Shown here one piece after another: positions 10,445-25,317 of a stretch of 64,000 bases of DNA. Within the stretch, counting starts at the first letter, position 1. Each line of letters begins with the position of its first letter. The DNA lies in assembly GCF_034343125.1 (NCBI RefSeq), contig NZ_CP139957.1, forward strand, positions 519,001-583,000, written 5' to 3'. The DNA comes from Caldicellulosiruptor danielii (lineage in GTDB: Bacteria > Bacillota > Thermoanaerobacteria > Caldicellulosiruptorales > Caldicellulosiruptoraceae). A model generated the notes under the pieces. The model searched no databases. It saw only the letters and a program-made list of their open reading frames with translations, and was not told the DNA's origin. The position numbers and the translations under genes are program-made.

Positions 10445-10473
10445 TTGACAAATTGCAAAATGAAGAATATAAT
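10445..10473 (+). promoter_or_regulatory. Perfect sigma-A promoter upstream of amtB
   Basis: TTGACA, 17 bases, TATAAT: a full consensus. Transcription should start near 10480 and run almost at once into the hairpin at 10501, then into a leader of about 280 bases before amtB. Confidence 0.85.
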
Positions 10474-10500
10474 GAGAGTTAACAAAGAGAATAAAGAAAG

Positions 10501-10545
10501 AAAGGCAAAGGCGCCTTTCAAAAGGTTGCCTTTGCCTTTTTTATT
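10501..10545 (+). terminator. Intrinsic terminator in the amtB leader (candidate attenuator)
   Basis: A twelve-base stem AAAGGCAAAGGC / GCCTTTGCCTTT with a second small stem (CCTT / AAGG) inside, followed by six Ts. It lies only about 20 bases after the predicted transcription start and over 200 bases before amtB. No gene ends here, so its natural reading is premature termination. A similar hairpin lies in the leader of the gene at 24145. Confidence 0.75.
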
Positions 10546-10711
10546 TACCACCGCAACTTACTCAATACTTCTTTTACCCTATATGGGATAATACTCCACC
10601 CACAACCCCATTTGTAGTGTTTTTTCCTTTACTTTTTTCTTTAAAACAGCTTTTTTATTATACCACATAAGTTTATTTCTGAAAAGAGGGGGCGCAAGGA
10701 GGTGTCAAAAA

Positions 10712-10744
10712 GTGCTTTTCAACTTCAAATCAACTTTCAATTAA
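10712..10744 (+). CDS. Ten-codon leader ORF upstream of amtB
   Basis: A GTG codon follows an unusually good ribosome site (AAGGAGGTG, 7 bases away) and opens a frame encoding about ten residues (MLFNFKSTFN) that stops 16 bases before the amtB ATG. The amtB ribosome site begins right after this stop, so coupling or leader-peptide control is possible. It may also be a chance frame. No codon-repeat typical of an amino-acid attenuator is present. Confidence 0.4.
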   Translation: MLFNFKSTFN

Positions 10745-10760
10745 ATGAGGAGGGTTAAAA

Positions 10761-12098
10761 ATGAATAGAGGTTTTAAAATTCTACTTGGCATCGTATTTT
10801 TGATCTTTATAGTAATATTAGGATTTAGCACAGCAAAAGCTGACCAGATTACACCTGAAAAGGTTGCAACAGCTATTGATAATGTGTGGGTGCTTGTCAC
10901 AGCGTTTTTGGTCTTTTTCATGCAAGCAGGGTTTGCAATGGTTGAAGCAGGTTTTACAAGAGCTAAGAACGCAAGCAACATTGTTATGAAAAACTTAATG
11001 GACTTTGCAATTGGTTCTGTAATTTTCTGGCTGTTTGGGTTTGCATTCATGTTTGGCAAGGACGCTGGTGGTTTCATAGGAACGTCAGGATTTTTCCTGA
11101 GCGATTCATTCAAACATTTAGGGCTTTCAATTCCACTTACATCATTTTTAATATTTCAGACAGTATTTGCAGCAACAGCTGCAACAATTGTATCTGGTGC
11201 TATGGCTGAGCGAACAAAGTTCATTGCTTACTGTATCTACAGCGCAGTTATTTCATTCATAATATATCCTGTTGTTGGTCACTGGGCATGGGGCGGCGGC
11301 TGGCTGAGCAAGCTTGGCTTTATTGACTTTGCAGGTTCTACTGTTGTACATTCTGTTGGTGGCTGGAGTGCATTGATAGGTGCCGCATTGCTTGGACCGA
11401 GAATAGGAAAATACACAAAAGATGGCAAGGTCAATGCTATCCCAGGCCATAGCATAACCTTAGCAGCACTTGGTACATTTATCTTATGGTTTGGCTGGTT
11501 TGGATTTAACCCAGGTTCTACTCTTTCAGGTATGAACGACAAAATCGGCGATATTGCAGTCAATACAAACTTGGCAGCTGCAATGGGTGCAGACTTGGCG
11601 ATGATATATACATGGATAAAGTACAAAAAGCCTGATGTCAGTATGACATTAAACGGTGCTTTGGCAGGACTTGTTGCAATCACAGCAGGATGTGCATCAG
11701 TCAACACATGGGGAGCAGCAATTATTGGTGGTCTTGCAGGAATACTTGTAGTTGTCGCTGTTGAGTTTATTGACAAAAAGCTCAAAATTGACGACCCAGT
11801 TGGTGCAATCTCAGTTCATGGCGTTTGTGGTGCGTTTGGAACATTGATGGTTGGGCTTTTTGCAACAGATGGAGGACTTTTCTATGGCGGTGGAATAAAG
11901 CAATTTTTAGTTCAGCTTGCGGGTGTAGCTTCAACATTTGTATGGACCACAATAACAGCCTTTATCCTCTTTGCAATTATCAAGCTTACAGTTGGCTTGA
12001 GAGTCTCTGAAGAGGAAGAGATAGAAGGTCTGGATGTTGCAGAACATGGTACGGCAGCGTATGGCGACTTTGTAATGAAGTCTCAAGCAGTGAAGTAA
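10761..12098 (+). CDS. amtB: Ammonium transporter AmtB
   Basis: A 445-residue polytopic membrane protein of the Amt/Mep/Rh family, with a cleavable N-terminal segment (ILLGIVFLIFIVILGFSTAKA) and eleven predicted helices. Conserved parts include VLVTAFLVFFMQAGFAMVEA, GWSALIGAALLGPR, LWFGWFGFNPGS and DPVGAISVHGVCGAFGTL with the pore histidine. It brings ammonium into the cell. The PII gene follows after 44 bases, the usual amtB-glnK pair in which PII plugs the channel when nitrogen is plentiful. It is transcribed from the promoter at 10445 through a leader with a hairpin. Confidence 0.96.
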   Translation: MNRGFKILLGIVFLIFIVILGFSTAKADQITPEKVATAIDNVWVLVTAFLVFFMQAGFAMVEAGFTRAKNASNIVMKNLMDFAIGSVIFWLFGFAFMFGKDAGGFIGTSGFFLSDSFKHLGLSIPLTSFLIFQTVFAATAATIVSGAMAERTKFIAYCIYSAVISFIIYPVVGHWAWGGGWLSKLGFIDFAGSTVVHSVGGWSALIGAALLGPRIGKYTKDGKVNAIPGHSITLAALGTFILWFGWFGFNPGSTLSGMNDKIGDIAVNTNLAAAMGADLAMIYTWIKYKKPDVSMTLNGALAGLVAITAGCASVNTWGAAIIGGLAGILVVVAVEFIDKKLKIDDPVGAISVHGVCGAFGTLMVGLFATDGGLFYGGGIKQFLVQLAGVASTFVWTTITAFILFAIIKLTVGLRVSEEEEIEGLDVAEHGTAAYGDFVMKSQAVK

Positions 12099-12124: not shown

Positions 12125-12481
<357 letters not shown>

Positions 12482-12710
12482 AATTTGGGGGGCTTACCTC
12501 TATCTTCGGTCAATAGTTTCCCGCTTACAATTTGGCAACAGCAGGCATCCAAAACACCCCCAAATTGAGAGGACAATAAATCTGCCTTGCCTCTTGCGCC
12601 CCTCTCTTTTGAAAAAGTGAATAATGTGTTTTGTGCCTGCCATTGCCACGTGTTATCAGAAGTTTTGAGAAAACCCAAAAAATTTGGTGTCTGCTGTTGC
12701 CCTTTTTATA
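12482..12710 (+). other. Probable structured RNA leader between glnK and nifH
   Basis: No gene is found here. Segment GGCAACAGCAG (12534-12544) is the exact complement of CTGCTGTTGCC (about 12691-12701), which is followed by a T run. A third segment, GCCTGCCATTGCC (about 12635-12647), can pair with the first one as well. AATTTGGGG at 12483 and CCCCAAATT at 12558 are complementary too, and a local stem GAGAGG / CCTCTC (12567-12606) ends in TTTT. Such competing pairings are typical of attenuators or riboregulators. It is not a riboswitch class I recognise. Confidence 0.5.
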
Positions 12711-12712
12711 GA

Positions 12713-12741
12713 TTTTACCCTTATTTCAAATAAGGATAAAA
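12713..12741. promoter_or_regulatory. 29-bp imperfect palindrome upstream of nifH
   Basis: TTTTAcCCTTATTT-C-AAATAAGGaTAAAA, fourteen-base arms with one mismatch, about 180 bases before nifH. It could be an operator for a nitrogen or redox regulator or an RNA hairpin. No nifA or sigma-54 type -24/-12 element is visible. From 12742 to 12922 I see only the nifH ribosome site (GGGAGGT) and a weak TTGACA (12873) with a poor -10 box. Confidence 0.5.
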
Positions 12742-12793
12742 TTCAGGGGAAGAGCAAATAAGTACTTCCTTCACCCTCCACACAAGCTGGTGA

Positions 12794-13744
<951 letters not shown>

Positions 13745-23997: not shown

Positions 23998-24026
23998 TTG
24001 ACAAATCTTGTCTGTTAAATTAAAAT
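23998..24026 (+). promoter_or_regulatory. Sigma-A promoter of the ABC binding-protein gene
   Basis: TTGACA, 17 bases, TAAAAT. Start near 24033, giving a leader of about 110 bases with the hairpin at 24060. The layout mirrors the amtB leader. Confidence 0.75.
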
Positions 24027-24059
24027 ATTCTCAAGTATGCAGTTTGAATATGCGCAAGA

Positions 24060-24108
24060 GGGCAAAGGTGGCCTTTTGTAGAGGTTTTCCTTTGCCCTTT
24101 TTTGATAC
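24060..24108 (+). terminator. Intrinsic terminator in the leader of the ABC binding-protein gene
   Basis: Stem GGGCAAAGG / CCTTTGCCC with an inner CCT / AGG stem and six Ts, about 30 bases after the predicted start of transcription and 37 bases before the gene. The core GGCAAAGG...CCTTTGCC is the same as in the amtB leader hairpin. Confidence 0.7.
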
Positions 24109-24144: not shown

Positions 24145-25317
24145 ATGAGAAAACTTATGTTCCAAAAGACTTTAGCCATTGTAGCTGCCCTTAGCTTGAT
24201 TTTGGGTTTATTAGCCTTTGCCTTTGCTTCAAACTCAAAAACAATAAGGCTTGGAGTTGATCTTGAGCTGTCTGGTGCTGTTGCGCAGTACGGACAGAGG
24301 ACTTTAGAAGGGCTTAAGATGGCAGTTGAAGAGATTAATAAAAAGGGTGGAGTTTTGGGCAAGAAGATAGAGCTTGTTGTATTTGATAACAAGTCTGACA
24401 AAACAGAGGCGCTAAATATTGCAACAAGGCTTGCAACAAAAGAGAATGTTTTAGCCCTATTGAGCCCTGTAACATCAGGTGCAACAAAATCTGCTTCAAT
24501 TGCCGCAACAAGATACAGAGTACCGCTTGTGTCAGCTACTGCTACTGATGATTCGGTTACAATTGATGAAAGAACTGGTAAGACAAAGGCGTATGTATTC
24601 AGAATCTGCTTTAATGACTCGTTTCAAGGAAGTGTCATGGCAAACTTTGCACTCAAGACGTTAAAGGTAAAAACAGCAGCAATTCTTTACAATGCAGCGT
24701 CTGATTACAGCAAAGGTCTTTACAAGAACTTTAAAGAGACATTTACAAAAGGTGGCGGTAAAGTTGTAGCAGAAGAAGCGTTCCAGCAGGGTGAACAGGA
24801 TTTTAATGGGATATTGACAAAGATAAGGGACAAAAAGCCAGATGTTATCTTTACACCTGTTTACTATGACGATGCAGGACTTATAATCAAGCAGGCAAGA
24901 GAACTTGGAATGTGGATGCCAATTTTAGGTTCTGACGGGTTTGACGACCCAAAGGTTGTTGAGAAAGCAGGAAGCAAATATGCAACAAATATCTTTTTCT
25001 CAACACATTATTCCTCTCAGGACACAGATAAGAAAGTTCAGGATTTTAGAAAAAGATACCAGCAAAAGTATAAAATTGAACCAAACGCACTTTCAGCACT
25101 GGGTTATGATTTGGGTTACTTCGTAGCAGATGCAATAAAAAGAGCAAACTCTACAACCAACAAAGAAAAACTTCGCAAAGCTCTTGAAAGCACCAAGAAT
25201 TTTGTAGGAGTTACTGGAATTATCTCAATAGATGCAAAACATAATGCAAAGAAGTCTGCGGTAATAATCGAGATTAAAAATGGTGTTCAGAGATTCAAAC
25301 AGAAGCTAAATCCTTAA
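24145..25317 (+). CDS. ABC transporter substrate-binding protein, branched-chain amino acid/amide type
   Basis: A 390-residue periplasmic-binding fold of the LivJ/UrtA class: signal peptide (about residues 1-29, cleavage at AFA-SN), IRLGVDLELSGAVAQYGQRTLEGLKMAVEEIN, LSPVTSGATKSASIAA, and GYDLGYFVADAIKRA. No lipobox cysteine is seen, which is unusual for a Gram-positive binding protein. No permease or ATPase genes follow, so it is an orphan. Ligand could be an amino acid, amide or urea; the shared leader architecture with amtB hints at nitrogen control. Confidence 0.85.
   Translation: MRKLMFQKTLAIVAALSLILGLLAFAFASNSKTIRLGVDLELSGAVAQYGQRTLEGLKMAVEEINKKGGVLGKKIELVVFDNKSDKTEALNIATRLATKENVLALLSPVTSGATKSASIAATRYRVPLVSATATDDSVTIDERTGKTKAYVFRICFNDSFQGSVMANFALKTLKVKTAAILYNAASDYSKGLYKNFKETFTKGGGKVVAEEAFQQGEQDFNGILTKIRDKKPDVIFTPVYYDDAGLIIKQARELGMWMPILGSDGFDDPKVVEKAGSKYATNIFFSTHYSSQDTDKKVQDFRKRYQQKYKIEPNALSALGYDLGYFVADAIKRANSTTNKEKLRKALESTKNFVGVTGIISIDAKHNAKKSAVIIEIKNGVQRFKQKLNP

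Follow-up and report, generated by a model that had tools for sequence, protein, structure and literature searches.

The closest described systems are the RNA targets of ANTAR proteins, such as those of EutV at the eut genes of Enterococcus faecalis, NasR at nasF and AmiR at amiE, in which a hairpin with a six-base loop carrying A at position 1 and G at position 4 (an A1/G4 hexaloop) has its 3′ arm in common with an intrinsic terminator (PMC3369931). The published definition is a dual-hairpin one: an upstream hairpin, P1, also with an A1/G4 hexaloop, precedes the terminator-overlapping hairpin, P2, by a short linker (Ramesh 2012). P1 is essential for EutV at eutP, and its deletion in E. faecalis abolished induction (PMC3369931). 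A later proposal from the EutV–RNA structure took one hexaloop as the minimal motif, with the dimer contacting one hexaloop at a time; P1 was held to recruit the protein for antitermination, single-hexaloop sites were proposed where there is no time limit set by transcription, and the role of single hexaloops was left open (PMC8934654). Targets were predicted in 2012 in other bacteria before ammonium transporter, glutamine synthetase and nitrogenase genes (PMC3369931). Caldicellulosiruptor fixes nitrogen above 70 °C without NifA, and how it responds to ammonium is unexplained (PMC8209448).

We analysed a 64-kb stretch (the window; G000:519001-583000) of a 2.82-Mb Caldicellulosiruptor chromosome, in which the leader of amtB is probably an ANTAR-type transcription antitermination switch in a single-hexaloop form that has P2 and no P1 (Table 1). 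This reading is drawn from the DNA itself, namely from the promoter, two mutually exclusive folds, the loop signature, covariation in the stem, recurrence before nitrogen genes and the context of ANTAR genes; binding by an ANTAR protein, the direction of the nitrogen response and the presence of nif in the transcript are what we infer. The locus shares the A1/G4 hexaloop, the common 3′ arm and the type of downstream gene with the systems above. It also resembles the RAT antiterminators of BglG and SacY in setting a single alternative hairpin over a terminator, but RAT is an element of 29–30 nt (PMC3369931), whereas here there is a simple hexaloop hairpin of 14–20 nt. Unlike the EutV/eut-type targets, there is no P1, and P2 lies about 4–20 nt from the predicted transcript start.

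Table 1. Features of the amtB leader and of the second element in the window (positions in the window).
Feature	Position	Strand	Remarks
Sigma-70 promoter of amtB leader, TTGACA-17-TATAAT	10445..10473	+	Invariant in the genus; predicted start ~10480
A-rich, unstructured 5′ leader	10480..10499	+	Without P1 hairpin
Antiterminator hairpin P2, GAAAGGC[AAAGGC]GCCUUUC	10500..10519	+	A1/G4 hexaloop; loop 10507-10512
Intrinsic terminator	10498..10542	+	Mutually exclusive with P2; U tract 10537-10542
Leader 3′ of terminator	10543..10760	+	Possible 10-codon ORF immediately 5′ of amtB
Convergent promoter, TTTTCA-17-TATAAT	10657..10685	-	Extended -10 (TGG before TATAAT); aimed at terminator
Predicted antisense RNA from convergent promoter	10497..10650	-	Possibly ending at the same hairpin
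amtB, ammonium transporter (PF00909)	10761..12098	+	
glnK, PII protein (PF00543)	12143..12481	+	
nifH	12923..13744	+	Then nifI1 (13789), nifI2 (14144), nifD (14549), further nif genes
Promoter of livK-type gene, TTGACA-17-TAAAAT	23998..24026	+	
Second element, hairpin AGGGC[AAAGGUG]GCCUU overlapping a terminator	24059..24103	+	7-base loop; G000:543047-543102, E 7.9e-10
livK-type substrate-binding protein gene	24145..25317	+	3′ of second element

The initial annotation had described a perfect promoter followed after some 20 bases by a strong intrinsic hairpin, and both descriptions hold. The promoter agrees with the consensus at 12 of 12 positions; the window contains three such perfect matches, against 0.07 expected from dinucleotide shuffles. 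The terminator ends in TTTTTT and remains stable at high temperature, with fold energies of −26.9 kcal/mol at 37 °C and −11.9 kcal/mol at 70 °C. A simple terminator scan listed this hairpin only as a minus-strand site, the plus-strand terminator probably being missed because of a bulge in its stem. The promoter-to-terminator segment hardly varies among nine Caldicellulosiruptor genomes, and the 110 nt 3′ of the terminator diverge. A strong promoter beyond 10545 had been named in advance as the finding that would speak against attenuation. The promoter scan found none on the plus strand with at least 9 of 12 matches between 10545 and 10760; thus amtB needs read-through, and the rest of the leader would be transcribed only when it occurs. 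The statement that nothing ends at the hairpin stands for plus-strand genes and calls for qualifying on the minus strand, where a convergent promoter points at the hairpin, which is terminator-like in that direction too. An AbiEii-type gene lies upstream of the amtB region on the minus strand. Further downstream, the whole-window scan returned no second ANTAR element before nifH, the 442-nt gap between glnK and nifH (12482-12922) holds no good promoter, and the nif genes are probably included in the amtB-glnK read-through transcript.

P2 is built from the terminator's 5′ arm, and overlaps and excludes the intrinsic terminator as P2 does in ANTAR targets; its six-base loop with A at position 1 and G at position 4 is the ANTAR recognition signature. 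When the growing transcript is folded at 70 °C, P2 is the minimum up to nucleotide 56 and the terminator from nucleotide 58. RNA polymerase would start constitutively at about 10480, and P2 would fold first as the RNA emerges. The terminator would then displace it, stopping transcription after about 63 nt; the independent short RNA of about 65 bases in the initial annotation is possible only as this terminated product. When nitrogen is scarce, an ANTAR protein encoded at G000:600k would bind the hexaloop and hold P2, blocking the terminator so that polymerase continues into amtB-glnK and, probably, nif. Joint control of livK, amtB2-glnK2 and glnA would fall to this protein as well.

The design recurs. 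Besides the second element in the window, the genome carries elements 5′ of amtB2-glnK2 (UGCC[AAUGGG]GGCA, with a perfect promoter of its own) and of glnA (AGGAC[AAAGGC]GUCCU), and the relative G004 adds others at genes that read, by eye from their translations, as ald and gabT. The promoters seen at these elements are near consensus, as expected where control comes after initiation. Among leaders of the class, an A1/G4 hexaloop hairpin sharing its 3′ arm with a terminator precedes amtB at 28 of 30 loci (mononucleotide shuffles 0/150) and glnA at 20 of 30 (dinucleotide shuffles 2/150), counts that come from phylogenetically related leaders and so are not independent events; dinucleotide-shuffle controls for the element lay at 1–3%, and reversed-pattern controls gave zero matches. 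A loop test free of the signature points the same way: among loops overlapping leader terminators, A1 and G4 occur together in 57 of 78 distinct six-base loops, compared with 3 of 27 five-base, 4 of 32 seven-base and 1 of 62 eight-base loops, and with 4 of 44 six-base loops from the rest of the window; the contrast is less marked for four-base loops (13/42). A genome-wide search with the loose pattern GGCAAAGGNGCC, allowing two mismatches, was unspecific (408 matches against 96 for the reversed pattern), and a match at G000:273929 was rejected as an ordinary symmetric terminator lacking a hexaloop.

These comparisons bear on one alternative, in which the hairpin terminates partially and constitutively and does no more than fix the basal level of amtB, with no regulator. 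It agrees with the in silico strength of the terminator and with protein binding being a prediction. However, the loop (AAAGGC, AAUGGC or close to these) and the GGC/GCC that closes it hardly vary among elements, although their terminator partners do. The stems, moreover, vary with pairing kept (GAAAGGC/GCCUUUC, AGAGC/GCUCU, CAAAAGC/GCUUUUG, AGGAC/GUCCU and UGCC/GGCA), such covarying hairpins recur before nitrogen genes, and the signature is concentrated in six-base loops. All this speaks against an unregulated terminator, an explanation that we regard as very improbable.

The published family definition is where the locus departs from its relatives. Within 60 nt upstream, no class amtB or glnA leader has a P1 (a stem of at least 3 bp with an A1/G4 hexaloop), in a scan that misses imperfect stems with mismatches. 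The scan is able to see P1, since it returned clear P1+P2 pairs in other families of the phylum (G071, G150, G038, G067, G082 and G120), where canonical P1+P2 elements precede amtB. The 20 nt ahead of P2 in the amtB leader are unstructured, and at glnA and amtB2 about 4 nt separate P2 from the predicted start, too short a distance for P1. As the upstream hairpin and linker of the dual-hairpin definition are absent, the amtB leader lies by definition outside the published ANTAR-target family and is filed as a single-hexaloop variant of the ANTAR antiterminator, not as a member. The same short upstream segments weigh against a ligand-binding leader, riboswitch or T-box, controlling the terminator. 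This option, raised in the initial annotation, draws on the attenuation architecture alone; Rfam gives no match to the leader at gathering score, a permissive search brings up matches at chance level only, and we consider this option extremely improbable. The proposed P1-less antiterminator bears on the question left by the structural work: the minimal motif of one hexaloop agrees with that proposal, but the single hexaloops here sit at terminators, and not at sites free of a transcriptional time limit (PMC8934654). The amtB leader design thus offers a natural test of a minimal ANTAR switch and of whether a P1-less hexaloop can antiterminate during transcription; searches with a dual-hairpin model would overlook such elements. 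No link between ANTAR proteins and Caldicellulosiruptor was found in the open-access literature, where matches mostly concerned Antarctic topics, and single loci are possibly listed in the supplementary tables of PMC3369931.

A search for ANTAR proteins, suggested in the initial annotation, found one in the genome, a protein of 209 aa encoded at G000:600281 (72.5 bits). ANTAR genes are present in 29 of 31 relatives and in 0 of 14 controls. Outside the family, 16 ANTAR-bearing genomes of the class were sampled, and in every one the gene lies directly 3′ of glnA on the same strand; the sister genus (G012) has an ANTAR-glnK-small ORF-amtB operon. These neighbourhoods support the ANTAR-type antiterminator that the initial annotation named as one option. 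In the ANTAR copy of the G012 operon, the RNA-binding helix lacks its conserved Met. Across a phylum sample, ANTAR and amtB co-occur (46/50 versus 19/69, P = 5e-13), and the element precedes amtB in 24 of the 40 leaders taken from genomes with ANTAR versus 0 of 6 from genomes without it (P = 0.008; dinucleotide shuffles 7/230), a comparison for which only four ANTAR-negative genomes with amtB were available; the class genomes without ANTAR (G019, G024) are also without amtB and so are unusable as a control.

The protein itself calls for caution. EutV contacts RNA through Arg142, Lys143, Lys147, Lys149, Glu160, Tyr164, Arg168, Met172, Asn173, Arg175 and Arg177 (PMC8934654). The Caldicellulosiruptor protein keeps the equivalents of Arg142, Lys143, Lys149, Glu160 and Met172, has Arg for Lys147 and Asp for Asn173, and differs at Tyr164, which stacks on G4 (Met), at Arg168 and Arg175 (both Gln) and at Arg177 (Pro). 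In its receiver, Glu replaces the phospho-acceptor Asp (VIMEYGF) and the acidic pair is missing, both of which mark a phosphorylated REC-ANTAR response regulator; Glu occupies this site in all Caldicellulosiruptor and in G012a, and the majority of the class's other families keep Asp. Further points against the ANTAR reading are the missing P1, the separation of the ANTAR gene from any target in Caldicellulosiruptor, the seven-base livK loop and the G at position 1 of the ald loop of G004, although our caution stems mainly from the degenerate receiver and the changed contacts, the G4-stacking aromatic included. The P2/terminator switch might accordingly be run by another RNA-binding protein, or by factors linked to PII or glutamine; the degenerate receiver, the lost contacts and the absence of P1 would all suit this. 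We think it unlikely, given that it leaves aside the A1/G4 signature, the co-occurrence of ANTAR with amtB, the pairing of ANTAR genes with glnA and amtB, and the canonical P1+P2 elements at amtB leaders elsewhere in the phylum. The ANTAR reading offers Caldicellulosiruptor a testable regulator and regulon, comprising amtB-glnK-nif, livK, amtB2-glnK2 and glnA.

The convergent promoter is a recurrent feature as well. A minus-strand promoter with TATAAT and an extended -10 faces the terminator from 77–116 nt beyond it in 14 of the 18 non-livK leaders examined, among them those of amtB, ald and gabT (P ≤ 0.03 for each, from shuffles). These are eight amtB leaders, the leaders of G028 and G030 (the latter before a livK-like substrate-binding-protein gene) and four of G004, at ald, gabT and two further genes. 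It is absent from the seven Caldicellulosiruptor livK leaders examined, from three amtB leaders belonging to a different family and from the disrupted leader of G003. In G003, terminator and amtB are separated by an insertion that has transposase-like sequence; the gene itself is kept and may be cut off from its switch. The hairpin could in principle serve chiefly as a bidirectional terminator that parts the short plus-strand RNA from a convergent antisense RNA, and both the frequency of the convergent promoter and the lack of conservation between it and the terminator are in keeping with this. Yet all seven livK leaders lack the promoter, the three other-family amtB leaders keep P2 and terminator without it, and the hexaloop is left unexplained, so that we give this explanation very little weight. 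Possible roles of the convergent promoter are a cis-antisense RNA or transcriptional interference. A role of the minus-strand RNA as an ANTAR decoy was rejected, since almost no element has a closed hexaloop in the hairpin of that strand: the closed loop is on the sense strand in 12 of 13 elements and on the antisense strand in 1–2. A broader model, which we put forward only tentatively, is that P1-less antiterminators are class-wide: one hexaloop near the very 5′ end might suffice, read by an ANTAR protein whose pseudo-receiver would sense nitrogen with no need of phosphorylation; several operons would in addition couple the switch to a convergent antisense RNA using the same terminator.

The alternative hairpin, the absence of P1, the further members in the window and genome and the convergent promoter all go beyond the initial annotation. 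Just 5′ of amtB there is also a short plus-strand ORF (10712-10750) of about 10 codons, with a GTG/ATG start and AAGGAGG ahead of it. It is present in several relatives with a varying peptide sequence, and is possibly a leader peptide or a product of chance.
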